DNA of 33,954 nt, taken from positions 1 through 33,954 of the forward strand of contig CAIMUX010000015.1 in NCBI GenBank assembly GCA_903844735.1, given 5' to 3'. The notes under the pieces were generated by a model, which did not search any database, was not told the origin of the DNA, and saw nothing but the letters and a program-made list of their open reading frames with translations. Below are positions 7,764 to 31,421 of this stretch, one piece after another. Made by a program: the position numbers and the translations under genes. Every line of letters starts with the position of its first letter. Position 1 is the stretch's first letter. This DNA is from Candidatus Eiseniibacteriota bacterium. GTDB lineage: Bacteria; Eisenbacteria; RBG-16-71-46; CAIMUX01.

Positions 7764-7767
7764 CGAC

Positions 7768-9294: not shown

Positions 9295-12185
9295 CGGTCG
9301 TTCCGGCCCGGGATCGTGCCCAGGGCGGTCAGAACCTTTTCAGCCGTGAACGGCCAACTGCGCATCCACACGCCGACAGCATCGTGAATGGCCGCGGCGA
9401 TGGCCGGGGAGGCGCCGTTGCAGCTTATTTCGGAGACCGACTTGGCTCCGTACGGCCCGAACGGATCGTTCGTCTCCACAAGTACCGCGCGAAAGTCCTC
9501 GGGCACGTCGTGGATCATCGGAACCCGGTAGCTCAGCAGGTCCGCGTTCAGGCATCGACCCTGTTTGTCCAGAACCATCTCTTCGAAGAGAGAATGGCCG
9601 ATGGTCTTGAGCACGCCGCCATAGATCTGGCCCAGTGCGAGCTCGGGGTTGATCGGAGTGCCACAATCCTGGAGCGCATAGTATTTCCGGACCTTGACCG
9701 CCCCGGTGCGCGTGTTCACCGCCACCTGGCAGAAGTGGGCGCCATAGGGGAAGGCTGCCTTGTCCGTGGTGAAGCATGCCGTGCTGGAAAGTGGTCCGCT
9801 TCCGGTTCCGGACTGGGTGAAGCGGGCCACTTCGGCATAGGTCACCGAGACGGTCCGGCCCTTGACCGTGGAGGGGAACGCAATCTCCAGATCCTCTTCC
9901 GGTTCACCCAGCATCTTCGATGCAGCCTCGATGATCTTCGCCCTCAACCCCTGAGCCGCCTGCAGGGCGGCGGTTCCGGAGAAAAAAGTCCCGCTCGAGG
10001 CGTAGGCCCCGTCATCATAGGGCGTCACGTCAGTGTCCGCGGCTATCAGCGCCACGTCGCTCATGGCCGCGCACAGGCACTCCGCAACCATCTTCGTGGT
10101 CATGGTGTCCAGCCCCGTCCCCATGTCGGTACCACCGCTCAGGAGCATGAAGGTGCCGTCGCCGAGCAGGGTGACGCTGGCGTTGGCGGAGTCGATTCCC
10201 GGCAGTCCCGAGGCCTGCTGAATGATCGCGACGCCCTTGCCGATCCGGACATCCGGGTCATCGCTCTCCTCTTTGACGCCCCAGCGGATCATCTCGGATC
10301 CCTGCGCGAGTGCCGGCCCCAAACCGCAGCTCGATACGGCCTGGGGCGTGCCCTCGCGTCCCTCACCGAGGCAACGCAGAATCTCGAGCATACTGCCGTC
10401 ATGCACCCTGTTCTTCTGTAGAAAAGCCAGGTGGTCCATGCCGAGCTCCCGGGCCATCTCGGCACTCGCAAGCTGGAGAGCATACGATCCCTGCGGCGCG
10501 CCGTAACCCTGATACGCTCCGCAGGGCGGGATGTTCGAGTAGTAGGTGGTGACGACAAACCGGACATTCTCACAGAGCAGCAGCGGCAAGCTCTTGGAAC
10601 AGGCGTTCATAGGGACGGTCAGAGCGTGCGCTCCGTACGGGCCGGTGTTGGCTGTCAGGTCCATCTTGATCGCCGTCAGCTTGCCGTCTTTCTTCGCACC
10701 CAGCGTGACCTTGATCTTCATCGGATGGCGCGTGCGCGAGGCGACGAACTCCTCTTCGCGAGTGAACTTGTAGAGAACCGGCCGGCCGGTCACCCAAGTG
10801 GCGTAGGCCGCGACCTCCTCGAGCACGATGTCCTGCTTCGCTCCGAATCCGCCGCCCACGCGCTCCTTGATCACACGGACCTGGTTTTCGCTGATGCCAA
10901 GAATCCTGGATACGATCCGGCGGATGTGCCACGGCACCTGGGTCGAGGCATGAATCACCAGGCGATCGCCATCCATCCTGGTGTACACGATGTGCGGCTC
11001 CAGCGGCGTGCACTGCACCTGCGAGGTCTCGTAGTCGCGTTCGATCACAACCTCGGCCTCGCGTAGCCCTTGGTCGATGTCGCCGATCCCGCCCGTCACG
11101 GCCGCCGCAATATTCCGGCGCGGGTCGGCGTGAATCGGGAACTGGTAGATGATCTTGCCGTCGCGGGGATCGGCCGTGCTGTTGTCGAGGCCCGCCGGTG
11201 TGCCGACAACGTATTCGAACACGCCGTTGTGAAGAACCGGTGCGCCGGAAGCCGCCGCCGCCTCGATGGAAAGCACGGGCTGGAGCACTTCGTACTGAAC
11301 CTTGATCTTTAGAATCGCCTCTCGCGCGATGGCAGGGGTTTCGGCCACGACCGCAGCCACGCGGTCACCGATATGCCGAACCTTCTGCCCGAACATCTTG
11401 CGGTCATAGGGAGAGGGCTCGGGAAACCCCTGCCCGGCCTGATTGTAATAGACGTCCGGGCAGTTCCGGTGGGTCAGGACCAAGACGACGCCCGGGGTCG
11501 CCTCGGCCGCGGTCGTGTCGATCTTCTTGATGTACGCGTGGGCATGCGGCGAACCCAGCATTTTGAGATAGCAGGAGCCCGCCTGCACCATGTCTTCGAC
11601 GAACGCCTTGTCCCCACGAACCAGGCGAGGACCATCGACCTTCGGCTTGACCTTGCCGATCACGCGGAGATCGTCCCTGAACTCAGGCGTCGTTCCAGGC
11701 GTCGTTCCCGCAGCCTGCGTGGGGCTCTTGACACGCTTTGCCGCGAGCCCGACCGCCAAGAACAGTTGCTCATAACCTGTACAGCGGCAGAAGATGCCGG
11801 AGAAGGCGTCCGCAATCTGCTCACGGGAAGGCTGTTCCTCTCTCGTCAGCAATTCCTCAGCGGCCAGAAGCATGGCCGGCGTGCAGTACCCGCACTGGAC
11901 AACACCCGCCTCGACAAACGCCGTCTGGATCGCCGACAGATCCCGAGTCTTGGCCAGATGCTCGACGGTCCGGATCTCCTTGCCGTCGATCTGCGGCGCC
12001 AGCAGCAAGCAGGAATTGACCGTGCGACCCTCCAGGAGGATGGAGCAAGCGCCACAACTGCCCTGACCATCGCAACCGTTTCGGACGGACAGGAGGCCTC
12101 TCTGTCGCAGGAGATCGCGCACGCGCTCGTCCGGCTCGACGTCGAGTTCGCAAGTTGTCCCGTTGATGGTGACCTTGATCTTCAT
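9291..12185 (-). CDS. Molybdenum hydroxylase, fused [2Fe-2S] and Mo-pterin subunits (xanthine dehydrogenase family, XdhD-like)
   Basis: This 964-residue enzyme fuses the iron-sulfur and molybdopterin subunits of the xanthine dehydrogenase/aldehyde oxidase family. The N-terminal plant-ferredoxin motif NGCDGQGSCGACSILLEG gives Cys38, 44, 47 and 59. The second [2Fe-2S] domain has CGYCTPAML (Cys98, 101) and FCRCTGYEQL (Cys133, 135). The Mo domain contains RVGGGFGAKQD and, near the end, GPYGAKSVSE, whose Glu corresponds to the catalytic glutamate of the family. Residues about 155-168 form the hinge between the halves and hold a duplicated GTTP. The start at 12185 is chosen because its ATG overlaps the FAD-subunit stop (ATGA) and AAGGGGG precedes it; a start 38 codons upstream adds unrelated sequence. 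A purine or other N-heterocycle is the likely substrate. The YqeB/YqeC neighbours imply the selenium-dependent subtype. Confidence 0.93.
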   Translation of the reverse strand: MKIKVTINGTTCELDVEPDERVRDLLRQRGLLSVRNGCDGQGSCGACSILLEGRTVNSCLLLAPQIDGKEIRTVEHLAKTRDLSAIQTAFVEAGVVQCGYCTPAMLLAAEELLTREEQPSREQIADAFSGIFCRCTGYEQLFLAVGLAAKRVKSPTQAAGTTPGTTPEFRDDLRVIGKVKPKVDGPRLVRGDKAFVEDMVQAGSCYLKMLGSPHAHAYIKKIDTTAAEATPGVVLVLTHRNCPDVYYNQAGQGFPEPSPYDRKMFGQKVRHIGDRVAAVVAETPAIAREAILKIKVQYEVLQPVLSIEAAAASGAPVLHNGVFEYVVGTPAGLDNSTADPRDGKIIYQFPIHADPRRNIAAAVTGGIGDIDQGLREAEVVIERDYETSQVQCTPLEPHIVYTRMDGDRLVIHASTQVPWHIRRIVSRILGISENQVRVIKERVGGGFGAKQDIVLEEVAAYATWVTGRPVLYKFTREEEFVASRTRHPMKIKVTLGAKKDGKLTAIKMDLTANTGPYGAHALTVPMNACSKSLPLLLCENVRFVVTTYYSNIPPCGAYQGYGAPQGSYALQLASAEMARELGMDHLAFLQKNRVHDGSMLEILRCLGEGREGTPQAVSSCGLGPALAQGSEMIRWGVKEESDDPDVRIGKGVAIIQQASGLPGIDSANASVTLLGDGTFMLLSGGTDMGTGLDTMTTKMVAECLCAAMSDVALIAADTDVTPYDDGAYASSGTFFSGTAALQAAQGLRAKIIEAASKMLGEPEEDLEIAFPSTVKGRTVSVTYAEVARFTQSGTGSGPLSSTACFTTDKAAFPYGAHFCQVAVNTRTGAVKVRKYYALQDCGTPINPELALGQIYGGVLKTIGHSLFEEMVLDKQGRCLNADLLSYRVPMIHDVPEDFRAVLVETNDPFGPYGAKSVSEISCNGASPAIAAAIHDAVGVWMRSWPFTAEKVLTALGTIPGRNDR
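11685..11708. repeat. Perfect 12-bp tandem duplication in the hydroxylase hinge
   Basis: AGGCGTCGTTCC occurs twice with no gap (11685-11696 and 11697-11708). It encodes GTTPGTTP on the minus strand, exactly in the linker between the iron-sulfur and molybdenum halves. The two copies are identical, unlike the diverged repeats elsewhere, so this looks like a recent event. Confidence 0.9.
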
Positions 12186-13135
12186 CCCCGGCCCCCTTTC
12201 GGCCGCAGCGCCTTCTGGAAGGCCGAGGACACGACCGCGCCGGCCTGATGCTTTACGTACGCCGCACTTGCGAACGGTGTCGAGGTCGGTCGCACGCACC
12301 GGCTGATCATCGCCGCGAGTTTGCCGGTCGGGGGTAAAGGCTTCCCGTCCAGAGCCCTCTCGGCGGACGTCAATCGCACGACATGCGGACCAACACCACC
12401 CACCGCGATGATCGGGTCATGGATGTCGAAGTCCGTCAGCGTCAGCGAGACCGCCACGCTCAGAAGCGATCGGGCGTTGGCCGATTCTCGGACGTTGCCG
12501 CACGCTGCCACACGATTTCGATCGGAGCGAGGAACGATGATCCTGGTGATCAGGCGGTTCGAACCGGACGTAGGTGCTGAGGAAACCCCTGAGGCACATG
12601 CCGAAGTGCATCCTGGGGCGCATGCCGAGGTGCATCGTGACATGACTCCGGACTTGGTTGCGGACCTCACTCGCATGGTGCTTCCAGACGTGGCTCCAGT
12701 GGTGATGTAGTCCATGACGGAGACCCTCTTGGCCACCCGCAGGCCCGGCAGCTCGACCTCGGCATCGAGAGCGATCAACATGGGGATCAGGTCGCTGTAC
12801 GGCAGGTTGGCGGCCACATGCCCCCCGATGGTCGCCATGTTGCGAACATTTCGACTCACGATCTGGGCAGCGGCGGCACGGAGAGGCTCAGGGGTTCTGG
12901 GGTCCTCAATCAGCCGCTGAAGCGGGCAGAGAGCCCCGATGATGAGACCGCCGTGTTTCAGGTCGATGCGATCGAGCTTCAGTCCTGCGAGACTGATCCA
13001 GTGCTCAGGGTGCAGGCGTGAGTCTTTGGCGTTGGCGAGGGTCCCGCCGGCGAGAAACGCGGCCCGGCCCTGGAATCGTCGCTTCAGGCTGAGCGCGTCT
13101 TGGATCGTGGCGGGCCGGTGAAACTGTTCGACCAT
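12182..13135 (-). CDS. FAD-binding subunit of the molybdenum hydroxylase (YgfM/CoxM-like)
   Basis: This 317-residue protein belongs to the FAD-binding subunit family of xanthine dehydrogenases and carries electrons from the iron-sulfur clusters to NAD or another acceptor. It shows FLAGGTLANAKDS near residues 27-39, corresponding to the 'AGGTdL' FAD loop. NVRNMATIGGHVAANLPYSDL near residues 95-115 corresponds to the 'RN-ATIGGN' flavin loop. A C-terminal domain ends with the family's usual A-Y-VKHQAG helix. Between DYITT and LITRIIVPRSDR, where relatives have a short turn, lies a repeat-rich segment of about 44 residues (units such as TSGS, TSAC, APGC, ASGV). It is the first gene of the operon, and its stop overlaps the hydroxylase start. 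No promoter upstream could be defined; the preceding region carries a transposase remnant. Confidence 0.88.
   Translation of the reverse strand: MVEQFHRPATIQDALSLKRRFQGRAAFLAGGTLANAKDSRLHPEHWISLAGLKLDRIDLKHGGLIIGALCPLQRLIEDPRTPEPLRAAAAQIVSRNVRNMATIGGHVAANLPYSDLIPMLIALDAEVELPGLRVAKRVSVMDYITTGATSGSTMRVRSATKSGVMSRCTSACAPGCTSACASGVSSAPTSGSNRLITRIIVPRSDRNRVAACGNVRESANARSLLSVAVSLTLTDFDIHDPIIAVGGVGPHVVRLTSAERALDGKPLPPTGKLAAMISRCVRPTSTPFASAAYVKHQAGAVVSSAFQKALRPKGGRG
12567..12698. repeat. Degenerate 12-bp tandem repeat, about 11 units, inside the FAD-subunit gene
   Basis: In blocks of 12 on the plus strand the sequence reads GACGTAGGTGCT, GAGGAAACCCCT, GAGGCACATGCC, GAAGTGCATCCT, GGGGCGCATGCC, GAGGTGCATCGT, GACATGACTCCG, GACTTGGTTGCG, GACCTCACTCGC, ATGGTGCTTCCA, GACGTGGCTCCA. 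Nearly every unit starts GAS or GAR. On the coding strand this gives tetrapeptides such as TSAC, APGC and ASGV, close in form to the TSAG-like units in yqeB. Confidence 0.8.
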
Positions 13136-16275: not shown

Positions 16276-18321
16276 CTATGGCCTTCCCGCCGCTTCGATA
16301 ACCCGCAAGACAACGTTTTCCTCATCCCGTATCGTTCGCATGATCCACCTGCCGTTGACGAACACCATAGGCACGGCACTCAACCCGACTTGCTGGGCAG
16401 CCCGCGAGTCATCGAGGATTGCCGCGGTGACTTCCGGTTTCCCCATCTCGGTGAACAGCGCATTAGGGTCCAGCCCCATCTTCGGCGCCGCGGCGCGAAG
16501 AGACTCATCGCTGAACGATTTCAGATTCCTCATGAGCCAGTCATGCATCTTCCAATAGCCTTGGGCACCACCCAGACTTCCCGCGGCTTCGACGGCCTGG
16601 GCGGCTCGGCCGGCCAGCGGGTGCACAGCCTCGGGCCGGACGTTGGGGGGAAGCGTGGTGTTGATCTTCGGGTCGATGGGAAAGTGCCGGAATGTGTACC
16701 GGACGTTGGGCTGCGATTTCATCAGGTTCCGAACCGCGATGTCCATGGAAGCGGTATACGGCTCCTGGTAATCCCCGAACAGGACCACGTCGACGAACCG
16801 GGACCCGGCCGGAGCCGCGCTCGCGTTCTTTGCCCCGGTGGACCAGGATCGTGTGTCAGGGGGCATCGTGCGGGCCGGCTGGTCGCGCCAGTCCTGGACG
16901 TCTTTCGTACCGGCGAGCGCCGGCCGGTCGGCCATCGCTGTGAGCAGAGGCGGACTCTTGGCCGCAACCTCGTCGATGGTGCGTCGCAGAGCACCGGCAA
17001 CCTGCCAGCCCTTGAACTCGACGCCATTGACGAAGATCATCGGAGTGAAGTAGAGCCCGAGAGCGCTTCCTTCATCACAGTCTGCTTGAACCCGACGCAG
17101 GGTCTCGTCTCCTTTCATGACCGCCAGGAACGCCTCAGGGCTGTGGCCCAGATCGCGCAGACCGGCCTGAAGGTCGGCGTCGGTAAAGTTGCCTTTCTTG
17201 GAGAAGAGCCACCGGTGCATCTCGAAAAATCCCTGGTCCCCTTTCAGGATGCCGGCTGCCTCAGCCGCCCTGGCCGCCCAGCACGCGTTGGCGTGCATCG
17301 TCTGCTTCAGGTACTTGTTGCATGGCACCCCGGGAACCGCCTCCGCGCAGAACGGATAGTGCTTGATCGAGAGGGAGATGTCGCTCCTGGAGGCCATGAT
17401 CTCCTCGATCTCACCTTCGACCCTCTGGCAGTCGACGCATTGATAGTCGGTCAACATGACGACCCGGATGGGACTGGCCTCGGGACCACGGCGGTAACGG
17501 CCCGTAAAGCCGGCCTTTCCCCACATGTCCACAGACGGGCCGGAAGCGGAGCCCGACACGGCTTGCCCCTGGGACAAGGCCCGGGTCTGGGTCGCAGCCT
17601 GCGCCAGGATCTTCTCTGTTGCTGCGCGCCGATCGGACTCCGCACTGATGCCTTCCTTTTGTTGCAGGCGGGCGTTCGCAACGCCAAGAACCAAGGAAAC
17701 CACCAGGAAAGAACCGAGCGCGGTACCCGCGAGCCTTCGCAGCAGGACCCATGACATGGATTCACCTCCTGAGAGTGATAGGCGGGCCGTCCGCCATGTC
17801 TCTCGTTCGACCACAAACAGAGTGCATAAGTTGGCTGCGTGAATTCCGACGCAGTAAGGACACAACTTGCGGTAGGCCAGCATGACTCCGATGAACAGGA
17901 GCGACGCGGCGCCACCGACCCGCAGAAGCCACCGGGCCGCCGCGGGCACCTCCCGCTCCATCACCATCCACGCGATGAGCAACGAGAAAAAGTAGGCGAA
18001 GCCCATAAACGAGACCGGCCACCTGATCCCGGGCACCATGCCCCAGGGCGTCTTCTCCAAGGATTCGCAACCGCTGGTGGGACCGCAGCCGGGGAGTCCT
18101 CCTCCGAAGTGCTTCGAGATCAGAAACGCGGACAACACCACGGCGGCCCCGAGCAGTGTCGCAACGCCCCAGTAGACGGCGTTGGAGATCCGGTATGCTC
18201 TCAGAAGTCCGACGCATCCGCCCTTGCGGACCCCTGCGCCTTCCACCTTTGTCACTCCATCCCCTCCATTTCGGTTTGCCTCACGAAGCGCGGGCTCGCC
18301 CCGGGCAGCCGCGTCGGACAT
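16276..18321 (-). CDS. VKOR - thioredoxin - thioredoxin-like fusion (disulfide-bond formation)
   Basis: This 681-residue membrane protein has an N-terminal vitamin K epoxide reductase domain (about residues 40-175) with four or five membrane segments, loop cysteines 79 and 85, and the active CPYC at 154-157. One further membrane segment near 192-214 leads to a periplasmic DsbA/thioredoxin-4 domain with DYQCVDCQ (Cys295, 298) and cis-Pro region FTPMIF. A second domain of the same fold (about 505-681) has DYQEPYTA in the same place and SAVPMVF, so both catalytic cysteines are replaced. VKOR enzymes reoxidise DsbA-like partners with quinones; fusion keeps the pair together. Start at 18321 is supported by GGGAG upstream. 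It lies 48 bases after the repressor gene, in the same direction, with which it may be co-transcribed. Confidence 0.9.
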   Translation of the reverse strand: MSDAAARGEPALREANRNGGDGVTKVEGAGVRKGGCVGLLRAYRISNAVYWGVATLLGAAVVLSAFLISKHFGGGLPGCGPTSGCESLEKTPWGMVPGIRWPVSFMGFAYFFSLLIAWMVMEREVPAAARWLLRVGGAASLLFIGVMLAYRKLCPYCVGIHAANLCTLFVVERETWRTARLSLSGGESMSWVLLRRLAGTALGSFLVVSLVLGVANARLQQKEGISAESDRRAATEKILAQAATQTRALSQGQAVSGSASGPSVDMWGKAGFTGRYRRGPEASPIRVVMLTDYQCVDCQRVEGEIEEIMASRSDISLSIKHYPFCAEAVPGVPCNKYLKQTMHANACWAARAAEAAGILKGDQGFFEMHRWLFSKKGNFTDADLQAGLRDLGHSPEAFLAVMKGDETLRRVQADCDEGSALGLYFTPMIFVNGVEFKGWQVAGALRRTIDEVAAKSPPLLTAMADRPALAGTKDVQDWRDQPARTMPPDTRSWSTGAKNASAAPAGSRFVDVVLFGDYQEPYTASMDIAVRNLMKSQPNVRYTFRHFPIDPKINTTLPPNVRPEAVHPLAGRAAQAVEAAGSLGGAQGYWKMHDWLMRNLKSFSDESLRAAAPKMGLDPNALFTEMGKPEVTAAILDDSRAAQQVGLSAVPMVFVNGRWIMRTIRDEENVVLRVIEAAGRP

Positions 18322-18369
18322 CGACGAAGCTCCCGACGGACACCGACAGATACACCGCAACCACGGTCG

Positions 18370-18648
18370 CTACTTCAGATAGGACCCGAGTAGGTTGATC
18401 AACTCCTCGGCAGCCTCGGTCTGCTGAGGGGTGATCTTCCGGTGCGGATCCAGAACGTGGAAACGGACATGTCCCGCGAGAATCTCGACCATCAGGCCGT
18501 TCATGGCTCCCCGGCAGGCGGCGATCGTTTGCAGGACCCGCGAGCTGTCTTCCTCCTCGTTCAGCAGCCGTTCAATCGCCTCCAACTGGCCCCGGATGCG
18601 GCGGACTCGTTGGAGCAGCTTCGGCCTGTCTCTCAAGGTGTGAGACAT
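18370..18648 (-). CDS. RcnR/CsoR-family metal-sensing repressor lacking the conserved Cys35
   Basis: This 92-residue DUF156 (CsoR/RcnR/FrmR) protein is all-helical, binds DNA as a tetramer and releases it on metal or aldehyde binding. It starts MSHTLRD, as E. coli RcnR does (MSHTIRD). It keeps His3, His60 and His64 (AGHVRFHV), the Ni/Co-type ligands, and RRIRGQLEAIERLL with AACRGAMNGLM. The family's key cysteine, at residue 35 of RcnR, is Ser here (EEEDSSRVLQ); the codon at 18544-18546 is AGC. A different cysteine is at position 45. Ligand geometry may therefore be altered. A matching operator lies just upstream. The neighbours are a divergent His-tailed transporter and a downstream disulfide-forming fusion. 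Ni/Co or a related metal is the best guess for its inducer. Confidence 0.92.
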   Translation of the reverse strand: MSHTLRDRPKLLQRVRRIRGQLEAIERLLNEEEDSSRVLQTIAACRGAMNGLMVEILAGHVRFHVLDPHRKITPQQTEAAEELINLLGSYLK

Positions 18649-18808
18649 TCAGGAATTCCCCCTTCCGCAACGCCTGTATGCCCTACAATACTATACCCGG
18701 GTAGGGTATCGCCAACTCCAACGCGAGAGGAGAGAACAAAGTCGCCACAGGGCTTGGGCCGCCCCGGGGTGGCTCGGCGCCACCGTCCTGCGGTGAACTC
18801 ATGAAACG
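18649..18808. promoter_or_regulatory. Divergent control region between repressor and DMT transporter
   Basis: This 160-base spacer separates two divergent genes. Its only AT-rich stretch, 18684-18695, offers -10-like hexamers on both strands: TACAAT (18684-18689) or TACTAT (18689-18694) on plus, and TATAGT (18690-18695) on minus. I find no good -35 at normal spacing for either. An operator palindrome overlaps this core. The rest (18710-18808) is G+C-rich and untranslated, ending in a three-codon ORF, ATG AAA CGA TGA at 18801-18812, whose stop overlaps the transporter ATG. Confidence 0.5.
18693..18709. promoter_or_regulatory. Probable RcnR/CsoR-type operator, ATACCC-N5-GGGTAT
   Basis: ATACCC and GGGTAT form a perfect inverted repeat around GGGTA. 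Operators of the CsoR/RcnR family are short G/C tracts flanked by T-A-rich ends of this kind (TACCCC...GGGGTA). Its position directly over the AT-rich promoter core, next to a gene for such a repressor, supports autoregulation and control of the divergent transporter. Confidence 0.72.
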
Positions 18809-19903
18809 ATGAGTAAGTTCCGGTTACCGGCGCAGATGCACGGGGAGATCCGCCGGGGGCAGATCGAGGTCATCGCCGCGGCGTTCGCTTTCGCGGCGAG
18901 CGTGCCCGCCACTAAGATCCTGCTGGCGGATACCTCCCCACTTGCTCTTTCGGGCGTGCTCTACCTGTCCGCAGGGGTTCTATGTTCCCTCCTTGTGGCG
19001 ATCTCGCGCTGGACGAAAGCGACCGCCGCGGGCGGGAGCATCCGCGGCACCGAGTGGCTTTGGCTCGGAGGCGCCGCACTCGCGGGCGCCGTGATCGCGC
19101 CGTTCCTCCTCTTTCTGGGCCTGCGACAGGTGAGCGGCCACATCACCGGGCTCTTGCTCAACTTCGAAGCCGTTTTCACGGTCGGTTTGGGTGTGGTCTT
19201 CTCCGGTGAACGCCTTGGCCGGCGCGGCTGGCTGGGAGCACTCGCCGTGCTGGCGGGCGCCGTAGTCCTGTCGCTCCCCGGAGAAGGGGCAGCACCAGGC
19301 GCGACTCGGTGGACCGGGATCGCCTTGGTCGTGGGCGCCTGTGCCCTCTGGGGTCTCGACAACAACCTGGTCCAGCGCGTGAGTCTGCGGGACGCCCGGC
19401 AGATCACCGCGGTCAAGGGGCTTTCCGGCGGCGTGTTGAGTCTCTTGCTTGCCCAGGCTTTCGGTGGGTTCGGCCGGTGGAACGGCGGTCGGCTCTCTGT
19501 CGCGATGGCCATCGGAGCCGTCTCGTTCGGATTCTCTATCGTGCTCTTCGTGCGGGGACTACGCCGCCTCGGCGTGATGCAGACCGGGATGCTCTTCGCG
19601 CTCGCTCCGGGCTTCGCCGCGATCCTTTCCTGGACGATCTTGCGCGAACAGGTCGCCGCGCGGGGCCTGGCGGCGCTTCTGGTCATGACCGCGGGCGCCC
19701 TGTTCCTGGTGCTCGACCGGCACGAGCACTGGCACGAACACGAAGCCACGGTCCACGCGCACGAGCACACGCACGATGGCCACCATCAGCACCTGCACGA
19801 CGCCGGGCAGGCCGCGGAACCTCTTGCCCACGAACATCACCATGATGCGACAAAGCACGCGCACGGACACCTGCATGATGTCCACCACCGCCACCGGCAT
19901 TGA
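18809..19903 (+). CDS. DMT/EamA-family transporter with His-rich cytoplasmic or periplasmic tail (candidate metal exporter)
   Basis: This 364-residue inner-membrane protein has two EamA repeats, about ten hydrophobic segments between residues 15 and 300. Typical motifs are AAAFAFAASVPATKILL at the start and TGLLLNFEAVFTVGLGVVF with LGRRGWLGALAVLAGAVVL in the first half. The second half contains CALWGLDNNLVQR and LAALLVMTAGALFLVLDR. The last 62 residues contain 24 histidines (HEHWHEHE, HAHEHTHDGHH, HEHHHDATKHAHGHLH). DMT carriers export many metabolites, but a His-rich tail together with a divergent RcnR-like repressor points to metal, most plausibly Ni or Co, analogous to the His-rich region of RcnA or NreB. 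The start ATG overlaps the stop of a three-codon leader ORF; an ATG at 18836 is an alternative. It is the only clear plus-strand gene of the window and ends six bases from the convergent Omp85 gene. Confidence 0.87.
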   Translation: MSKFRLPAQMHGEIRRGQIEVIAAAFAFAASVPATKILLADTSPLALSGVLYLSAGVLCSLLVAISRWTKATAAGGSIRGTEWLWLGGAALAGAVIAPFLLFLGLRQVSGHITGLLLNFEAVFTVGLGVVFSGERLGRRGWLGALAVLAGAVVLSLPGEGAAPGATRWTGIALVVGACALWGLDNNLVQRVSLRDARQITAVKGLSGGVLSLLLAQAFGGFGRWNGGRLSVAMAIGAVSFGFSIVLFVRGLRRLGVMQTGMLFALAPGFAAILSWTILREQVAARGLAALLVMTAGALFLVLDRHEHWHEHEATVHAHEHTHDGHHQHLHDAGQAAEPLAHEHHHDATKHAHGHLHDVHHRHRH

Positions 19904-19909
19904 AGGGCG

Positions 19910-21622
19910 TCAGAACCTCCGCTCCACCTGCGCATGCACCCGCCCATCCGCGATGCTCCCGCCACGCGGGATCGCGACATCGATAACCACGCGCCGTCCC
20001 TCCGCTTCCTGGGCCAGGCCGATGCCGAAGCCAAGAACGTCGCGGTCGCGCTCCGCACGCCCGGGCGGGCGCCACGCCGCCGCATCAAGGAACAGATACG
20101 CGCGCGCCTCCGGCCACGCCGGCCCCACCTCTAGTTGCCCCGCGGCGTAGCGCCGCGCCGCAAGGCTCTCGTCGGCGAACCCGCGAAGGTTCTTCGTTCC
20201 GCCGAAGCGCAACGCCTCCGACGGCGGCAACGAATCGGCCCGCGAGACCGCTGCCGCACGTAGCCCCATCCGCACCACAAGCCCGTCGCGACCGACGAAG
20301 CGCTCGGTGAGCAACTCCGCGCGGTCGAGGCGGAGACTCGCCTCCGGCCCGCCCCCGGCTGGCCGGACCCGCGTGCGGCCGGAGCGGTAGGTGGTCTCCA
20401 GGCGGCCACCGGACCACGCTCCCGGACGCTCGGTATCCCAACGTCCTCCGAACACGCTGGAGACTCGCCGGTCCCGCTCCGCAGGCTCGTGACCCAGAAC
20501 CGACCGCCGCCACTCCGCGCCGGCGAGCGCGGTGAAATCACTCCCCAGCGCGGTCTCCCCCAAGAGCTCCAGCACCGCCGTGGTGTAGGTCGAGTCGCGC
20601 ACCTCCTGCTCCACGGAGAGTCGCAACCCCACCGGAAGCGGCCCCAACAGAGGGTCGCGCGCCTCAAGTCGCAATCGCGACTGCTCCTTGCGCGCCCGCT
20701 CCCAACGCACCGTAAATCGCCTCCCGGTGCCCAGGACGTTGCCGAGCTGGAGGTCGAGGAGCCCGGTCACCGCCCGCGTCCGCCCGGAGTAGCCGACGGC
20801 CCCCTCTACCCTGTTGTGCTTCGCCTCCTCCACGGGCAGCACCACGCGGACACCGCCCACCGGGCGCAACTCCACACGCGGCTCCCCGGCGGAAGAGAAC
20901 AGGCCCACCTGCTCCAGCCGGCGCCGCGCCGCTTTCCAGTCCGATTCGTGAAACGGCATCCCGGCGTGAAACCCGACGAGCCGGTGCAGGAACGACTCAC
21001 GCGTCACGGTCCGCCCGGGAAAGCTGACCTCCTCGACCCGGCAGTAGGGGCCGGCATCGAGGCGCACACCCGCGCGCACGCGCCCACCGCTGACCGCCAG
21101 GCTCTCGATCCGCGCCACGGCAAACGGATGGCCGCGCTCGGTCGTCGCATCGACCCACGCCCGCAGCGTCCGCTCGATGCGGCCGGCGTCAAACCGCGCA
21201 CCGGGACCCGGGTGCAGCGGGAACAAAGAGGGGCCGGTAGTCGACGCCGCGAGGCTGTCCCAACGCGCCACCGGCCCATCGTCCACCGTGAGGATGCCGG
21301 TCCCCGCCGAGTCAACCATGAGCCCGAGCTTCGACTCGAAACACCCAGCATCAACAAGGACTCTGCCCAACCCGGCCAGTCCGTCCTCAAGGCGGGACCG
21401 AGCAATGCCGCCACCGTCCAGACCGATCGGCAGCCACACCCGCACCGTGCGAGCCGAGAGAATGCTCCCGCCGCGCACCAACACCGGTCCGGAAAAGCGC
21501 ACAGAGTCGGGTGGATCGTCTGGCACAGCCAGCGCGATCCCGCCGGCGACGAACGGCGCCATCACGAGAATCAGGAGTGCGCGTCGGATCGCTATCGTCG
21601 TCGTCGGCCGGCGCAAGGCCAT
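19910..21622 (-). CDS. Omp85-family outer-membrane protein (POTRA + BamA/TamA-like barrel)
   Basis: This protein is about 570 residues. A basic signal peptide (MALRRPTTTIAIRR then ALLILVMAPFVAGGIALA) is followed by POTRA-like segments: RVEEVSFPGRTVTRESFLHR, then GMPFHESDWKAARRRLEQVGLF. The C-terminal half is a 16-strand-type barrel with GGTKNLRGF, the conserved L6 'G-x-RGF' loop of Omp85 proteins. It ends RVHAQVERRF with the terminal Phe used as an assembly signal. Such proteins insert or translocate proteins at the outer membrane. With one or two POTRAs it is shorter than BamA, so it is more like a TamA or patatin-type relative. I prefer the ATG at 21622; a TTG at 21688 overlapping the upstream stop (TTGA) would add 22 residues made from repeat DNA. 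It is the last gene of the envelope operon. Confidence 0.82.
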   Translation of the reverse strand: MALRRPTTTIAIRRALLILVMAPFVAGGIALAVPDDPPDSVRFSGPVLVRGGSILSARTVRVWLPIGLDGGGIARSRLEDGLAGLGRVLVDAGCFESKLGLMVDSAGTGILTVDDGPVARWDSLAASTTGPSLFPLHPGPGARFDAGRIERTLRAWVDATTERGHPFAVARIESLAVSGGRVRAGVRLDAGPYCRVEEVSFPGRTVTRESFLHRLVGFHAGMPFHESDWKAARRRLEQVGLFSSAGEPRVELRPVGGVRVVLPVEEAKHNRVEGAVGYSGRTRAVTGLLDLQLGNVLGTGRRFTVRWERARKEQSRLRLEARDPLLGPLPVGLRLSVEQEVRDSTYTTAVLELLGETALGSDFTALAGAEWRRSVLGHEPAERDRRVSSVFGGRWDTERPGAWSGGRLETTYRSGRTRVRPAGGGPEASLRLDRAELLTERFVGRDGLVVRMGLRAAAVSRADSLPPSEALRFGGTKNLRGFADESLAARRYAAGQLEVGPAWPEARAYLFLDAAAWRPPGRAERDRDVLGFGIGLAQEAEGRRVVIDVAIPRGGSIADGRVHAQVERRF

Positions 21623-21683
21623 CCCGGTCATCATCGCCCTCGGCCCGAACGCCGTCATCCCGGTTATCGTCGTCTTCGGCCGG
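21576..21683. repeat. 36-bp direct repeat, three copies, at the SprA-like/Omp85 junction
   Basis: Copies are at 21576-21611, 21612-21647 and 21648-21683. On the minus strand each begins CSGGCCGANG and most contain GATGACCGGGATG or a close variant; the third copy is the most diverged. Translated in the Omp85 frame they give RPKTTITGMTAF, GPRAMMTGMALR and RPTTTIAIRRAL. The repeat therefore creates several in-frame ATG codons just upstream of the signal peptide. Confidence 0.7.
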
Positions 21684-21684
21684 G

Positions 21685-24600
21685 TCAAAACGAAGCCCGC
21701 AATTCCATCCGTCCCTCACGGTCCTGTATCCCTCGATCGGGGCGCCGGTCGCGGTACCAAGCAGAGAGGTCCAGCTCTTCGCGCAGCCGCACCGCGGCTA
21801 CGAGGCGCAGATTCCAGCCGGGAATCTCGAGAAGCTGACTCGACCTTCCCTCGCCACCCTGGCGGTCCACCGTGGTCCGCGTCACCCGCAGCTCGATACG
21901 GCTGCGCAGACGCGGGGTCCAAACGACATAGGGCGTGGCCTCGGCCACCCGCGCCGTCTCATGGGCGCCTGCCCGATTGCGCCGTCGTCCCCAGGCCTCG
22001 AGCCCGGCCGAAAGGGAGGTGCGCAGCCTCATCTGCGGTTCCACCCGCAGCCGCACAGAGCGCCAGCCGTCGAGACCGGTGTCAATCCCGGAATCGGCGG
22101 TCCGTCGGATGGCTGTTCGCTGCACGGCTGACTCGAAGTCCCCCTCCGTGTCGACGGTGACGCGATCGCCCGGGCGCGACCGGATCCGCAGCGCCCAGGT
22201 CGACTCGTTCCCGCTCTCCGTAGCATTGAGGAGCAGGGCCCGCTGCGAGCGGCGCCGATCCCAGCGCAATCGCGGAGAGATCCAGCGGGCTTCCGGGAAG
22301 GCGCTCCCCTCCGAGGTCATACGCACCTCCGCAAACGGGACCTCTCGTTCGCCGGCCAGCACCGGCAGGAGGCGCGGCCAAAACCAGGCGGCGCTCCGCT
22401 TCGTCTCGATCCCCGCTGTCCACACGTGAACAAGACGCAACCCGCGACGAAAGCGTGCCCAATCTCCCATCGCCGCCGACGTCTCGCCGCTCAGTGCACT
22501 GCGTCCCGGGTCGTATTCGTGGCGCAACGAGAAGTCCATCCGATTGACCTGCGCGCTGTCGCCGCGATCACGGTAGAAGACCTCGTAATCGCCGACGCCG
22601 GCATACGTCCCCAGAGAGTCGTAGCGCCCGGCACCGGCACCGATGAAACGGACCTCCTTGTCGCTTCCGCCGCGCGTCGTGGTGGTGAGCTCCCACCGTC
22701 CCTCCTGAAGAAGGGCATCGCCGGCGGCCCGCTCCGACCAGCGCACTCTTCCGACTCGGCTGGACTGTCGCGCCCCCCCCCGGACGCGCAGTTCCCGAGC
22801 CGCCAGGTCGGCGGCCAACAGTCGCCCCCCCGTCCCCGTCCACTGTGCCTCCAACTGACCCGTGTCGCCCGTGTCGAGTTCATTGGTGACCGCCCCGAGC
22901 AACGAGAAGCTCACCCGGCGGGTGAACTCGGCAGATGTCCGCAGTGCCTCGAACCCTGAGCCGGTGCCCAGTCGCACCGACCCCTCGCGAAAAAAGGCGC
23001 CGGTGCGTGCCGAAGCCGCACCCTGCTCGCTCCGCTCGCGGGCGTAGCGCGCGGAGGCGGAGAGGATCCCGCCCGACCAGCCTAGAGACGCCCGGTCCGC
23101 CTCGCGCGCGCCGCGGCTCGTCCCAGCCGCTCCGCGATCGCGGGTGCGCACACGCACCACCCGCGCGTCACCGCGCAGTCCGCCGAACCGCACCCCGGTG
23201 GACAGCGTGCCGCGCTCTCCGTGGTAGTCGTGCAGGTTGTCAAGATCCTCGCCGGTGACGGTCATCGTGCCGTTTCCCGTCGAAATCGTGGCCTCGGCAA
23301 GCCTCCGACGGTCACCTGTTGCCAGGCGCGCCGTAGCAATGTTCCAATCACGCGCGAAGAAGGCCGGATCGAGCCGGTCGAACGGCCGAAATCGCGCCTC
23401 CGTCGCTCGCAGGATGCTGCGCAGGGAAAGCGCCACCGGTCCCGCAGGGAAGGGGCCCGCGCCGGCATCGAGGAGCCAGGCCGCGCCGCGATTGTCACCG
23501 TCATCGCGCGTCGAAAGGGTGTTGGAGTCGAACTCGGAGACGGCAGCCTCCCCCCGCAAACGGAACCGGTCGCCCAGCCGGGGCGCCGCCGCCAACGAAA
23601 CCAGCGTAGTTGTCCGAGGGCGAGGCACCTCGGTCCCCGGCAGGAACGCGCCCCGCTGTTTTCCGGTGTAGACGAAGAGCGTGTCCCCACCGGCATCGGT
23701 GGTGTCGCGGTAGTCGCCCTTGCCGTCTCCAACCTCGTCGAAGCGGACCAGGTACGAGCCCCGCCCCGGTCCCGTCCAGAGGAAGAACGAGACGGCGAGT
23801 GTGTCGTTGCGCACACGATCGTACTCGCCCTCCCCGGGGCCCACGAAGCTGACGCCGGAGGAGATCTCCGCGGTGACCGCGTCCCCGGCGGCACGCAACG
23901 CATCGCGCTGCCCGCCGGTCAGAGGAAACAGAGGACGGCTGGAATCGTCCCCCTCTCTGATCATCGCCACGCGAACGCGCCCCGCCTTTAGCCGCGAACC
24001 GAACGGCATCACCGGCTCCTCGAACGAGCCGCCGGCGGCGTTACCGGAGCCGTCCGAAGAGAGGCCGCTCCCCGATCCGTTTCCAGACGCCCCCGGGCGG
24101 CTTCTCGTGGGACCGCCGGCCGGGCCCAGACTCCACTCCCCGCCCCCGCCGTAGACGGAACGGCGGTACCGGTCGAGGGCCACCTGGTACTCCACGGTGA
24201 TTTCCGAATACGCGGTAACAGGGTGCTTGCCGGTGAACGCGAGCGTTCCACCGGCGTAATCGATCAGATAGTCCTCCGACTCCCCGCGGCGCAAAGCCGC
24301 GCCATCGAGCCAGACGCGCTCACTACCGGGGACGACGCCACCGACCGACCCTGCCGTGTCGGGCGGAGCCAACGCGTACGGTCCCTGTTTCCCCTCCTGG
24401 CCGAGAAACTCCCGTGTGAGGTATGTACCCGGGGCCGTCGCGCCGAGAACAAAGGCGGAGAAACGTCCCGGCGTCGCCTCGGCCTGGGCCCCCTGCAGCC
24501 GCCGGTCGAAGCGCAGAAACTCGCTCGGCGGGGCGGCGAACCGCAGGTCGCCGAGGACCATCTTCGCCATCGGGCCCTCGACTTCCACGCGCACACGATC

Positions 24601-25233
24601 GAGATCGCCGAGCCGGGAACTCGTGCCGTCGGCTTCCAGCGGCGTGCGTCGATCGGTCAAGACAGCTCGCACCCGCGTGTCCCGCCCCAGGCGTCCGTCC
24701 ACGGTGAGGTCGAGCGACTGCCGCAGCGCCAGGTCACGACGCGTCCCAACCTCCACAGCGAAGGTCTTGCTCCCGCGGATGTCGAGGCGCACCGCGTTTT
24801 CGTCCGGTGGCACACCCGCGGGCGCCGACCCCGTCGACGCACTACCCGACGACGCCTCCCCCGCCCGGACGACAGGGCGGCGGGCATATTCCGGCAAGAC
24901 CGGCAGCGGGAACCTGCGGTAGTCGGCATGGAGTTCGGTTCCGCGAGGAAAGGCACGGAGCAGGCGCACCGTCCCTCTCCGCGGATCAAGAAGATAGTCG
25001 ACGCCGCGCGTCAGTAGCGTGTCGCCGCGGGCGAGTCGAAAGGACTCGACCCGAATCCAGCCCGAGGGGAGCTGCAGCCGCAGCGACTCGGGCTCGGCCC
25101 GCAACACCGCGGTGGCGCGGTCGGCTTCCCAAACGAACCGACGGGCCTGGCCCAGCGCCGTCGCCGGCGCACAAAGGACGATGCCCGCTGCGAGGAGCGC
25201 AGCCGCGTCAGCGCGGAAGGCGTGTCTTTGCAT
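21685..25233 (-). CDS. Large SprA-like outer-membrane barrel protein
   Basis: This protein of about 1182 residues starts with a signal peptide (MQRHAFRADAAALLAAG then IVLCAPATALGQA). Residues about 150-230 read GSKTFAVEVGTRRDLALRQS, then LDLTVDGRLGRDTRVRAVLT, RTPLEADGTSSRLGDLDRVRVEVEGP and MVLGDLRF. This 'G-K-F-V-G---DL-L-QSL---G-L--D--V-A-L-D--TPI---G-----L-DLD-V-V---GP----LGDF' pattern is the N-terminal signature of SprA, the type IX translocon barrel, and its relatives in FCB bacteria. The remainder is alternating amphipathic strands rich in Arg, Gly and Tyr, ending in ELRASF with terminal Phe, as in outer-membrane barrels. It is about half the length of Bacteroidetes SprA. It overlaps the propeller gene by 26 bases. 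The export role is inference from family resemblance and neighbours; it could also be a generic envelope barrel. Confidence 0.72.
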   Translation of the reverse strand: MQRHAFRADAAALLAAGIVLCAPATALGQARRFVWEADRATAVLRAEPESLRLQLPSGWIRVESFRLARGDTLLTRGVDYLLDPRRGTVRLLRAFPRGTELHADYRRFPLPVLPEYARRPVVRAGEASSGSASTGSAPAGVPPDENAVRLDIRGSKTFAVEVGTRRDLALRQSLDLTVDGRLGRDTRVRAVLTDRRTPLEADGTSSRLGDLDRVRVEVEGPMAKMVLGDLRFAAPPSEFLRFDRRLQGAQAEATPGRFSAFVLGATAPGTYLTREFLGQEGKQGPYALAPPDTAGSVGGVVPGSERVWLDGAALRRGESEDYLIDYAGGTLAFTGKHPVTAYSEITVEYQVALDRYRRSVYGGGGEWSLGPAGGPTRSRPGASGNGSGSGLSSDGSGNAAGGSFEEPVMPFGSRLKAGRVRVAMIREGDDSSRPLFPLTGGQRDALRAAGDAVTAEISSGVSFVGPGEGEYDRVRNDTLAVSFFLWTGPGRGSYLVRFDEVGDGKGDYRDTTDAGGDTLFVYTGKQRGAFLPGTEVPRPRTTTLVSLAAAPRLGDRFRLRGEAAVSEFDSNTLSTRDDGDNRGAAWLLDAGAGPFPAGPVALSLRSILRATEARFRPFDRLDPAFFARDWNIATARLATGDRRRLAEATISTGNGTMTVTGEDLDNLHDYHGERGTLSTGVRFGGLRGDARVVRVRTRDRGAAGTSRGAREADRASLGWSGGILSASARYARERSEQGAASARTGAFFREGSVRLGTGSGFEALRTSAEFTRRVSFSLLGAVTNELDTGDTGQLEAQWTGTGGRLLAADLAARELRVRGGARQSSRVGRVRWSERAAGDALLQEGRWELTTTTRGGSDKEVRFIGAGAGRYDSLGTYAGVGDYEVFYRDRGDSAQVNRMDFSLRHEYDPGRSALSGETSAAMGDWARFRRGLRLVHVWTAGIETKRSAAWFWPRLLPVLAGEREVPFAEVRMTSEGSAFPEARWISPRLRWDRRRSQRALLLNATESGNESTWALRIRSRPGDRVTVDTEGDFESAVQRTAIRRTADSGIDTGLDGWRSVRLRVEPQMRLRTSLSAGLEAWGRRRNRAGAHETARVAEATPYVVWTPRLRSRIELRVTRTTVDRQGGEGRSSQLLEIPGWNLRLVAAVRLREELDLSAWYRDRRPDRGIQDREGRMELRASF

Positions 25234-26425
25234 GATCCAAAGCGCTGATCCGACGGCGCAAGACCTCGCCCCCACCGGGTGAGGTGAGGAGCAGCAGCGT
25301 ATCGCCCACAGCCTCCACATCGGAGAGGGGGCTGCGTGGCGCCGGGGAGAGCAGATCCTCGGCCAGGAGCCGCCCGGCAGCATCACGCACCCAAACCCGC
25401 CCCTGGCCCCGCGACACGAGCACGACGCGCCCGCCGCCGATGACGGCGAGCAGCCCCGGCGGTTCGGCTTGGGTCTCGCCCGGCTCCAACCCGGCCCAGT
25501 CGCCCAGCAGCACTCCTTCGCGCGAGAAGCGGCGGACCCGGCAACCGGCCGTGTCGAGAACGAAGATGGCGCCGTCGTCGGTCACCGCCAGTCGTGCCGG
25601 CGTGCGCGGGCGCCCGGGCCCCGCCAGCCCAGCGAAGAGATCCGTGACAAAGCGACCTTCGCGATCGAAGAGGAGCAGCCGCCCGCCGATCCGGTCGAGA
25701 ATATACAGATCTCCCGATGATGAGAGAGCGAAGTCGGCAGCGCGACCCGGTGCCAGCCCCGCGTCTCGCAGCCCCTCGGCATAAACGACCGTGGCTCGCA
25801 AGCGACCATCAAGATCGAAGCGATAGAGCGTTCCCTCCGTGTCGTCGATGGCGTAGAGGTCCGGCCCGCCCCGCGCAAAGATCCCGGTCAGGATCGGCGA
25901 GCGGCCGGCCACCTGGTCGGCAGCGCCGAACGCAGTGATGGCGCCACCGGGATCGAACCGGACAATGCGTCCGGCGCCGCGGTCGAGAACAAAGACATGG
26001 CCAAAGACATCGACCGCGACCGCCTCGGGAACGAACGGCCCGAGGCGACCCGGGGTGATGAGCGGCGGCAGGGAACGCTCCGGAGCAGTGGTGGCGGAAG
26101 CAACTGTGAAGGCGGACAGAGCCTGGACCGCGGCAGAGTCACCCGAGACAAGCCGGTCGAAAGTATCAGTCGACTCGCCCGAAACAGGCAGATCAAGAGT
26201 TTCGGCCGCCTCGCCCCCGAGAGGCTTCGCAGAGATTGCGGCCGCATCGCCCGAAAGCGACTCGCCAGGGGTGCGGGCCGCTTGGCTCACGTCCGCCCGG
26301 GACGGAACGGCTGCCACGGCCGCGGTGGACCCGATGACCGCCGGAAAGAGCATGAACCGGATCGCGGCCCACCCGCGCCGCCGCCCCTCGCATGAGCATG
26401 ACCGCGTCCGCACCCATCCCGGCAT
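25208..26425 (-). CDS. Secreted six-bladed beta-propeller (NHL-type) protein with repeat-derived linker
   Basis: This 405-residue protein has an N-terminal signal sequence (RGWAAIRF then MLFPAVIGSTAAVAAVPSRA). From about residue 125 it has five or six propeller units of the form 'A-D-G-VFVLD-G-GRI-RFD-G': VFVLDRGAGRIVRFDPGG, LYAIDDTEGTLYRFDLDG, LYILDRIGGRLLLFDREG, IFVLDTAGCRVRRFSREG, and VVLVSRGQGRVWVRDAAG. These match NHL or SMP-30-like propellers, which usually bind proteins or glycans. Residues 49-96, before the propeller, are four tandem 12-residue units (VSGESTDTFDRL, VSGDSAAVQALS). GGAGGAGG seven bases before the ATG supports the start. It lies between the DUF5683-like pair and the SprA-like barrel and probably acts in the periplasm beside them. 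Confidence 0.82.
   Translation of the reverse strand: MPGWVRTRSCSCEGRRRGWAAIRFMLFPAVIGSTAAVAAVPSRADVSQAARTPGESLSGDAAAISAKPLGGEAAETLDLPVSGESTDTFDRLVSGDSAAVQALSAFTVASATTAPERSLPPLITPGRLGPFVPEAVAVDVFGHVFVLDRGAGRIVRFDPGGAITAFGAADQVAGRSPILTGIFARGGPDLYAIDDTEGTLYRFDLDGRLRATVVYAEGLRDAGLAPGRAADFALSSSGDLYILDRIGGRLLLFDREGRFVTDLFAGLAGPGRPRTPARLAVTDDGAIFVLDTAGCRVRRFSREGVLLGDWAGLEPGETQAEPPGLLAVIGGGRVVLVSRGQGRVWVRDAAGRLLAEDLLSPAPRSPLSDVEAVGDTLLLLTSPGGGEVLRRRISALDHAKTRLPR
26139..26282. repeat. 36-bp tandem repeat, four units, in the propeller gene
   Basis: Units start at 26139, 26175, 26211 and 26247; each begins TCRCCC-GA on the plus strand (TCACCCGAGACA, TCGCCCGAAACA, TCGCCCCCGAGA, TCGCCCGAAAGC). The period of 36 is three times the 12-base period seen elsewhere. 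The units encode 12-residue blocks in the linker between signal peptide and propeller. Confidence 0.85.
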
Positions 26426-27170: not shown

Positions 27171-27878
27171 TCATGGCAGCACCTTCACGAGGGCCAGCGT
27201 AGCCTGCGGATGACTCCCGCCGCGGAAGCCGGACTCGAGCCGCAGCGACGACTCCGACCCACCCTCGGCACGCCCCCGAGCCGTGCGGAAGGCGTCCACG
27301 CCGCTGACCACGCGGTTCACCATCGCCGCGGCCAGGGCTAGGCGCGCGCGATCGAGCAGGTCGTTGCTCTGCTGCCGCATCTTCCGATAGTGCGCCCGGT
27401 TCGGCGAGAGGGCACGATCATTGGCGGGATCATAGGTGGCGGCCCAATCGTCCCACCCGGCCCGGAATTTGTCGTATTTGCCGATCTCTTCGTAGTACTG
27501 CTGCTGGTCGCGGAGGAGGAACTCACTGAGAAGCGTGTCGTCTTCCGCGTGGTAGTTGGCGCCCAGGCTATCTCGCTGGGTTCGATAAAGGTCGCGCGTC
27601 CAATGAACATCCGCGTACCGCTCGAACTCGCTCTCTTTCCTGTTGCCGGCGTCGAGGTAGGAGAGTCGCGCAAACCACGCCGCGGCCTCGATCCCGAGAT
27701 AGAGGTAGCCGCGGTCATCACCATTGTACAACTGCCCCGCCCCGGGCAGGATCGCGGAGAGAAGAAAGGAGACTCCAGGCTTACGTACCGGCTTCGCCCG
27801 CTCATCCGCCCGACAGGGCCCCACCGCCCAGGCCGCCGCCAGGAGCGCGGCCGCGATCATCAACGGCCTTGACCTCAT
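27171..27878 (-). CDS. DUF5683-like envelope protein, copy A
   Basis: This 235-residue protein has a signal peptide (MRSRPLMIAAALLAAAWAVGP then CRADE) and the motif FLLSAILPGAGQLYNGDDRGYLYLG with IEAAAWFARLSYLD, the best-preserved DUF5683-like hairpin of the two copies. A long charged helical region (KESEFERYADVHWTRDLYRT, FLLRDQQQYYEEIGKYDKF, YRKMRQQSNDLLDRARL) and VNRVVSGVDAF follow. Relatives sit in the envelopes of FCB bacteria without an assigned role. Its ATG overlaps the stop of the protease gene (ATGA at 27875-27878), which implies coupled translation. The tandem pair has diverged well beyond 50 percent at the protein level by eye. Confidence 0.76.
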   Translation of the reverse strand: MRSRPLMIAAALLAAAWAVGPCRADERAKPVRKPGVSFLLSAILPGAGQLYNGDDRGYLYLGIEAAAWFARLSYLDAGNRKESEFERYADVHWTRDLYRTQRDSLGANYHAEDDTLLSEFLLRDQQQYYEEIGKYDKFRAGWDDWAATYDPANDRALSPNRAHYRKMRQQSNDLLDRARLALAAAMVNRVVSGVDAFRTARGRAEGGSESSLRLESGFRGGSHPQATLALVKVLP

Positions 27879-30800: not shown

Positions 30801-31399
30801 GGCGGATCGATAGGGATCGCCCGGCTCACCTCGTCCCGGCGCAGGTCGAAGCGACCGTCGCCGGTCGACTTGTGCCCGGGCGTGTCCTTCAGGAAGTCGA
30901 CCCGCAGCAAGAGGATGCGTAGAGTCTCGGGCGTGGCCGCCGCCTTGGCCGCACGGTAGGCACCCAGGAACTCCCGCGAGTCGTGGGCCTGTACCAGGGC
31001 CTCAGCGTTGGCTCGGCGCCGAGCCGAGAGAACGCTCGGGCCTATCGGCGAGAACGGATCCCAGGCGGCGTTGCCGGGAGGGAGTGACGCCCGCGGACGC
31101 CAGCCCTGCGGCGCAAACGTCGGATGCGAGCGCGGCCCGAAGGCAAACAGCCGATGAGGGAACGTGCGGATAGGGGCGGGTCCGGTTTCTCCGGCCGCCA
31201 CCGCCCGTAGTTGTAGGCGAGTACGCGGCCTCGGCGCACTCGCCCAGGCGTCCACCCGAGTTCCCCCGAGGACAGTCTCCCCCAGAACAACCCCCGTCAG
31301 CACTACCAGGATCAACGCGGCGAGTCCCACCGCGGCGGGAATGGAAAGGGGGAGTCGGAACCCTACTCCCCCCGCGCGATGCCGATGTCGAATGAGCAC
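27875..31399 (-). CDS. Secreted M6-like metalloprotease with C-terminal propeller-like and FlgD-like sorting domains
   Basis: This protein is about 1174 residues. A GTG start at 31399 is preferred because AGGAGA lies six bases upstream; an ATG at 31456 would overlap the PorV-like gene. A signal anchor (LPLSIPAAVGLAALILVVLTGV) is followed by a propeptide region. The catalytic domain has HEFGHQVGFDDLYD at residues 365-378, the HExxHxxGFxD zinc motif, and FSLMDSG as a likely Met-turn, like immune-inhibitor-A/M6 proteases. FLKDTPGHKS and ILIFHAGADL precede it. The middle (about 690-1060) has repeated 'W-DG----G-P' strands resembling FG-GAP or VCBS propellers. The last 85 residues (LRLYPNPLRG, VRLTAYDLSGHRVAEL, GLYQVRVRF) form an Ig-like FlgD/T9SS type A-like domain used for surface export in FCB bacteria. 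It probably exits through the neighbouring envelope proteins. Confidence 0.88.
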   Translation of the reverse strand: MLIRHRHRAGGVGFRLPLSIPAAVGLAALILVVLTGVVLGETVLGGTRVDAWASAPRPRTRLQLRAVAAGETGPAPIRTFPHRLFAFGPRSHPTFAPQGWRPRASLPPGNAAWDPFSPIGPSVLSARRRANAEALVQAHDSREFLGAYRAAKAAATPETLRILLLRVDFLKDTPGHKSTGDGRFDLRRDEVSRAIPIDPPPHDKIYFSAHMEALSRYYRVQSGGSLVLKWDIYPAENDSAYHLPDTRKYGPWVWSNSNPDVFVHIIDLVGDALAAADADTTLDFNPDPGTALEPYYRSILIFHAGADLQGDINGDTPWDIPSLNLYVQDPFVVQDSTVSVNYVQIVPETANQDGFWGALNGVVTHEFGHQVGFDDLYDVATGISMVGAFSLMDSGENLYGNIVDPADSTQTLPVRGTLPGSVDPWHKIRFFPDGVDLVGPEDFVSGDSDSFEVALPSSQLPLSEGGNRILYLPLNLSEYLLVENRVWDLNGDSLIALKSDKETGVILGPVPADTLAPATDLGYREYDYLLPAQGIIAWHVDNLAINTGFSRPYGGVNIFFSRPGVAVMEADGIRDIGTASNEYTGGPYDTWYQGGYTCLGPGTVPSSRTNDGTPTGLTMCALDSIGVTARVSVDIGLGLADWPVLMLGAPREEQIAVLRWSTMGGAPALFVASGDSLYGWRPDGRPLREGGPPSGEWASFDLPVEQGLAAKQMLMMCDTGDSCQVDAVGVVAGGTLRLLTSWGTTWIWPGPSPGDSLVTATPVLDSLFAWVGCGDGMIRVLRPNSSGNPVLRLSVGSGAVRVLGAGWLDAEGPEGDYTCFWETDRGEFGAASWRGPGQDPRILFHADYNRPGVTPAGVLAIPAGVGRPARILFAWSDGTIEWRATDGALLPGWPAFLGAAPAGSSIACDADADGVLETVVADQQGRVHCLGVNGVDELGWPRSLWSEDERQPPAQILGVRALDLDGVGGPEILVHRTDGFLVALDGRGEKVPGWPRALGADARLGPEWIPASPLSGPRLGYGSDYGVDSTGAPFTAVGITRVVPEARGIVPGAFPSAGFDASRSRVYPAELVPDPVVIPVDGPRASLRLYPNPLRGDQLTVFFTLDRPAQVRLTAYDLSGHRVAELDAEGQLGSDGNHLPWDWGQLSSGLYQVRVRFLGEGWSDDMIEKVAVVR

Positions 31400-31421
31400 G
31401 CGATGTCTCCTGGAACCCCCC

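Follow-up and report, generated by a model that had tools for sequence, protein, structure and literature searches.

A histidine-tailed DMT transporter of the CnrT family encoded opposite an RcnR-like DUF156 regulator

Described nickel and cobalt exporters and the locus

CnrT, encoded in the cnrYXHCBAT operon of Cupriavidus and catalogued in AMRFinder as 'nickel diffusion facilitator CnrT', has been described as a DMT-family protein and an inner-membrane nickel exporter (PMC7019866, PMC11647595, PMC9045368); authors differ in how they classify the cnr transporter, which one genome paper tags as CDF. Few studies have dealt with CnrT as a metal exporter, and its relatives carry no more specific annotation than 'DMT family transporter'. 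In E. coli, the DUF156 repressor RcnR is encoded divergently from RcnA, an inner-membrane exporter of the NicO family (PF03824) with a His-rich part, and the two genes share a short operator region. In the DmeR-DmeF system, a DUF156 repressor controls a Ni/Co exporter that is a CDF protein, and NreB, an MFS protein of nickel efflux, has a His-rich C-terminus. NcrB of NcrA-NcrB is another nickel-responsive DUF156 repressor (PMC3046157).

The window, by which we mean the whole stretch of 33,954 nucleotides analysed here, carries a DMT transporter gene (Table 1) whose product has the DMT/EamA fold and the length of CnrT and shares with it a tail of 24 His residues at the same spacing as well as a WxxDNN motif. 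Unlike cnrT, which closes an RND operon that also encodes the sigma factor CnrH and CnrYX, the window gene is solitary and lies opposite a gene for a putative DUF156 repressor. In this divergent layout the locus resembles RcnR-RcnA, although its exporter is a DMT protein rather than a NicO protein; indeed, it matches EamA and not PF03824, and no NicO/RcnA gene was found in the genome. E. coli RcnR combines Cys35 with the operator TACT-G6-N-AGTA, whereas the window regulator has Ser35 and faces TACCC-N5-GGGTA. The likeness to DmeR-DmeF is extended by an Azospirillum locus (L036), in which DMT, DUF156 and dmeF genes are grouped, but the window regulator is RcnR-like and not of the type found there. 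The His-rich C-terminus recalls NreB, yet EamA is the only Pfam family matched by the window protein, and it is not an MFS protein.

Table 1. Positions of the transporter gene, its facing regulator gene and the elements within and between them
Feature	Position	Strand	Basis or remark
DUF156/RcnR-like repressor (putative), 92 aa; H3, H60 and H64 kept; Ser35	18370..18648	-	PF02583
Divergent intergenic region, 160 bp, expected to hold both promoters	18649..18808	.	
Operator-like quasi-palindrome ATACTATACCCGGGTAGGGTAT	18688..18709	.	core TACCCGGGTAGGGTA at 18694-18708
CnrT-type DMT (EamA) exporter (putative), His-tailed, 364 aa, 10 TM	18809..19903	+	Pfam, alignment, tree, predicted fold
TM6 motif WGLDNNLV (W181, D184, N185, N186), family-specific	19349..19372	+	family alignment
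His tail unit 1, residues 305-330, HxHxHxHx4HxHxHxHDxHHxHxH; predicted beta hairpin 305-311/314-320	19721..19798	+	
His tail unit 2, residues 339-364; predicted beta hairpin 339-345/348-354; Leu at 339	19823..19900	+	

Family membership and the histidine tail

Pfam analysis of the transporter revealed EamA (PF00892) twice (102.8 bits), and an AlphaFold2 model based on an alignment of 53 sequences (mean pLDDT 90.5) combined the two EamA repeats in a ten-helix DMT fold. None of the solved structures was matched by sequence. A structure search with an earlier model, built from 11 sequences, matched SLC35B1 at Z 26.7 and 5i20 at Z 18.6, and the best matches were DMT structures, at Z 13-27, whereas MFS proteins reached no more than about 7. 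Alignment with Cupriavidus CnrT (41% identity) extended to the last residue with the tail His in register. The preliminary description of this locus had counted 24 His in the last 62 residues, which we confirm, and had suggested that the combination of a DMT carrier with such a tail opposite an RcnR-like gene would be a new carrier type. The latter proposal has to be given up because CnrT, already described as a DMT-family nickel exporter, has the same tail in the same register, and the window protein is instead an unrecorded member of this already named family.

The extent of the family was explored in several searches. Among 99 genomes, searched with a window query cut just past the start of the tail, ten intact homologues were found (30-73% identity), each of them His-tailed; the closest, with 73% and 69% identity, come from the same class as the window genome, which argues against a foreign contig in this draft assembly (completeness 95.8%, contamination 5.0%), where the window is the whole contig or nearly so. 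A search of plasmids returned relatives annotated as DMT family transporter and one AMRFinder CnrT beside cnrB and cnrA. Scanning public genomes with a single sequence and over-strict patterns gave no relatives, while an alignment-based scan detected at least 586 loci. In the best 80 of these, which according to their record titles belong to Pseudomonadota, Actinomycetota, Cyanobacteriota, Chloroflexota, Gemmatimonadota, Bacillota and archaea, each protein (80 of 80) has 22-27 His among its 75 C-terminal residues. The tail-plus-core signature thus defines the CnrT family at no fewer than 586 public-genome loci, whose genes could be re-annotated.

The core also sets the family apart when the tail is left out. 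With a core-only profile, 99 of 99 tailed proteins scored at least 264 bits and 13 ordinary EamA proteins at most 68 bits, the two tail-less proteins with intermediate scores being truncated, either at a contig end or by a masked stretch. In a tree of the family core, a single clade (support 0.89) comprised 98 of 98 tailed proteins, the window protein and CnrT among them, and set them apart from the EamA proteins that have no tail; the window protein and its nearest homologues (L003-L005) branch deeply within the family, far from CnrT. We also considered that the universal presence of the tail might be an artefact of a tail-bearing query. This was rejected, as a consensus-like core-only probe (six intact matches and one C-terminal fragment) gave the same result as the nearly tail-less window query, all intact matches above the gap being tailed. 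Taken together, the window protein is almost certainly of the CnrT type.

The tail consists of two 26-residue units in register at an offset of 34 residues, and only 1.1% of shuffled window tails equalled the observed His self-match at any tested offset. In 97 relatives, 23 His columns of the tail are conserved to at least 95%, compared to a mean of 62% for core columns, although divergent tails may be under-sampled because these relatives are mostly the best matches to the window. This conservation rules out a chance run of His or an accident of one genome; among the relatives compared, the tail is nearly invariant from archaea to bacteria. AlphaFold2 modelling on the 53-sequence alignment gave two beta hairpins in the tail (305-320 and 339-354), with mean pLDDT values of 89, 87, 91 and 74 for ten-residue blocks across the strands, and the first model, from 11 sequences, had identical hairpins at lower confidence. 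In the model, the alternating His would point to one face of each strand. Given the near-invariant His columns and the modelled hairpins, the tail appears to be a folded module and not a loose buffer of His, and the positive charges in the even loops predict that it is cytoplasmic. The window protein departs from its relatives at two near-invariant positions, with Val188 in place of the Thr found in 99% of relatives and Leu at residue 339 in place of His.

Eight polar core residues, Y52, N118, E120, W181, D184, N185, N186 and K203, are characteristic of the family and seldom occur in EamA proteins outside it, and the WGLDNNLV motif together with E120 may form an intramembrane metal or proton site. 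Organic solutes are the export substrates of most characterised EamA proteins, and the solved DMT relatives carry nucleotide sugars, choline and phosphorylated metabolites, from which it could be argued that the export substrate of the core is a metabolite or a small organic ligand of metal, comparable to metallophore export by EamA proteins, with the tail serving only to sense or buffer metal. Against this, the transmembrane residues N118, E120, D184, N185 and K203 are specific to the family and rare in ordinary EamA proteins, cnrT is the end of a nickel efflux operon, and no ligand-synthesis genes were found beside the window gene or as a common neighbour of its relatives. We consider an organic substrate very improbable; it is likely that the window protein exports a divalent metal, with nickel or cobalt as the probable substrate.

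The DUF156 regulator and the shared intergenic region

The product of the facing gene belongs to DUF156 (PF02583, 72.8 bits against a cut-off of 22.8) and is encoded by the sole DUF156 gene of the 5.4-Mb genome. It shares 41% identity with E. coli RcnR over its length and 48% with the regulator of a Caballeronia arationis locus (L083), whereas a search of 46 other genomes of the class yielded no RcnR-like protein, the best matches being 28-30% identical. An RcnR-like gene opposite the transporter, as put forward in the preliminary description, is therefore in place, divergent across 160 bp. The NCBIfam RcnR equivalog model scored 74.7 bits, short of its 138-bit cut-off, the FrmR and RcnR models gave about equal scores, both far below cut-off, and position 35 of the RcnR ligand set (H3, C35, H60/H64) is Ser, for which reasons we name the protein RcnR-like and not RcnR. 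A Cys at position 35, or X, takes part in every known metal-sensing site of DUF156 proteins (PMC5016687), and the nickel ligands of RcnR include the N-terminal amine, Cys35, Glu63 and His64, to which His3 is added for cobalt (PMC7055735). Ser35 in place of Cys thus makes the inducer uncertain, and we give nickel or cobalt an even chance of filling this role. The Ser35 codon (AGC; 18544-18546, minus strand) is one base away from Cys (TGC) and is known from a single draft assembly, so an assembly error is possible.

The intergenic region contains a single operator-like site. Its core, TACCC-N5-GGGTA, is present in only one copy, whether the window or the entire 5.4-Mb genome is scanned; a looser pattern with N3-8 would be expected 0.02 times in the window, and the pattern written backward, used as control, has two sites in the genome. 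The operator described earlier as fitting thus stands as a unique inverted repeat, but not as the E. coli RcnR consensus, in place of which a related palindrome is found. The Caballeronia arationis locus repeats the divergent layout of the window, and its RcnR-like site, TACCCTAGGGGAGTA, resembles the one in E. coli, TACTGGGGGGGAGTA. No sigma-70 promoter was recognised in the 160-bp gap by consensus, a consensus that is not informative for this lineage. In an acidimicrobial relative (L070:9020-9075), strong palindromes, TACCCCCCCCGGGGTA and TACCCCCGGGGGTA, lie between the His-tailed DMT and DUF156 genes.

The pairing of DUF156 with His-tailed EamA genes, which had been suggested as a check, proved real but sporadic. 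DUF156 genes were found in the flanks of four of the 80 best loci (L039, L060, L070 and L083), in each case directly adjoining the DMT gene within about 350 bp and with no second DUF156 gene in the searched flanks, and further cases are the above Azospirillum locus and another one (L139). In the genomes of the window, L083 and L060, the sole DUF156 gene adjoins the DMT gene. The linked DMT proteins are scattered over the tree, suggesting that the pairing arose repeatedly or was often lost. In the Caballeronia arationis genome there are two His-tailed DMT genes (L128 and L140), with DUF156 beside only one.

These observations also bear on the possibility that the regulator senses formaldehyde or sulfane sulfur, or mainly serves a minus-strand VKOR-DsbA gene that directly follows it, the DMT gene being placed opposite by accident. 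The nearly equal FrmR and RcnR scores and that downstream gene speak for this reading, as do the nearest DMT homologues (L003-L005), which have no DUF156 gene within about 1.5 kb and whose genomes, in two of three cases, lack DUF156 altogether. However, formaldehyde sensing by FrmR uses Cys35, which is missing from the window regulator too, the shared gap holds the unique operator-like site, and the adjacency of DUF156 and His-tailed DMT genes recurs in unrelated lineages. We hold such an arrangement to be quite improbable; the DUF156 protein very likely represses the DMT gene. The downstream ORF (16276-18360, minus strand) encodes a VKOR-thioredoxin-DsbA fusion (PF07884, PF13462, PF01323) and could be co-transcribed with the DUF156 gene. 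A VKOR gene is also present near a Stanieria relative (L037).

Proposed function and genomic surroundings

We propose, with a probability of about 70% for the reading as a whole, that the window encodes a CnrT-type exporter of divalent metal, probably Ni/Co, under repression by the RcnR-like protein. At low metal, the repressor would occupy the shared operator and block both genes, and metal bound at its N-terminus, H3, H60 and H64 would release it and turn both genes on. The ten-helix DMT protein, acting as a secondary transporter, possibly with proton coupling, would then carry a divalent metal, Ni(II) and/or Co(II) being most likely, out of the cytoplasm into the periplasm, and the duplicated His module on the cytoplasmic side may bind the metal and then deliver it to the pore or gate it. 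Metal efflux under an RcnR-like repressor, as first suggested for this locus, is well supported by inference, while Ser35 weakens the case for nickel sensing in the manner of RcnR. The arrangement raises two questions, namely whether the tail folds into a module that binds metal and whether a DUF156 protein without the X-position Cys would still sense metal. That both hold, the CnrT tail being a folded, duplicated beta-hairpin metal domain paired in this lineage with a thiol-free DUF156 sensor, is a tentative and rather doubtful idea.

The same family and architecture might serve another metal, Zn(II)/Cd(II) or mainly Co(II), instead of nickel. Lacking Cys35, the repressor is left with the N-terminal amine, H3, H60 and H64, which might make it a sensor of Co/Zn with low affinity. 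FrmR E64H, with H60 and H64, reacts in cells to both Zn(II) and cobalt (PMC5016687), but retains Cys35. Chromate and P-type ATPase genes occur among the neighbours of the relatives and indicate a context of metal that is not specific to nickel. On the other side, CnrT has been described for nickel, and Ni/Co is indicated by the RcnR-like regulator of the Caballeronia arationis locus and by the neighbouring dmeF in Azospirillum. We consider this alternative unlikely.

The favoured reading, a CnrT-type Ni/Co exporter under RcnR-like repression, has to accommodate the absence of a nearby DUF156 gene in most family members, even the closest (58-73% identity). The window genome also encodes three CDF genes, which could perform the same job. 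Immediate neighbours of the relatives are heterogeneous and include no constant partner gene, and a search for riboswitches near the gene in ten diverse relatives gave none, the hits being tRNAs only.

Elsewhere in the window, further genes were noted on the minus strand. Large ORFs at 19910-21688, 21685-25386 and 27875-31456 (within 19910-25386 and 27875-32699) have no Pfam match and, together with a PorV-like protein at 31422-32699, likely encode envelope proteins. A molybdenum-hydroxylase-like cluster at 1574-13135 encodes pyruvate:ferredoxin oxidoreductase, YqeC, an amidohydrolase and a xanthine-dehydrogenase-type molybdenum hydroxylase with its FAD subunit.
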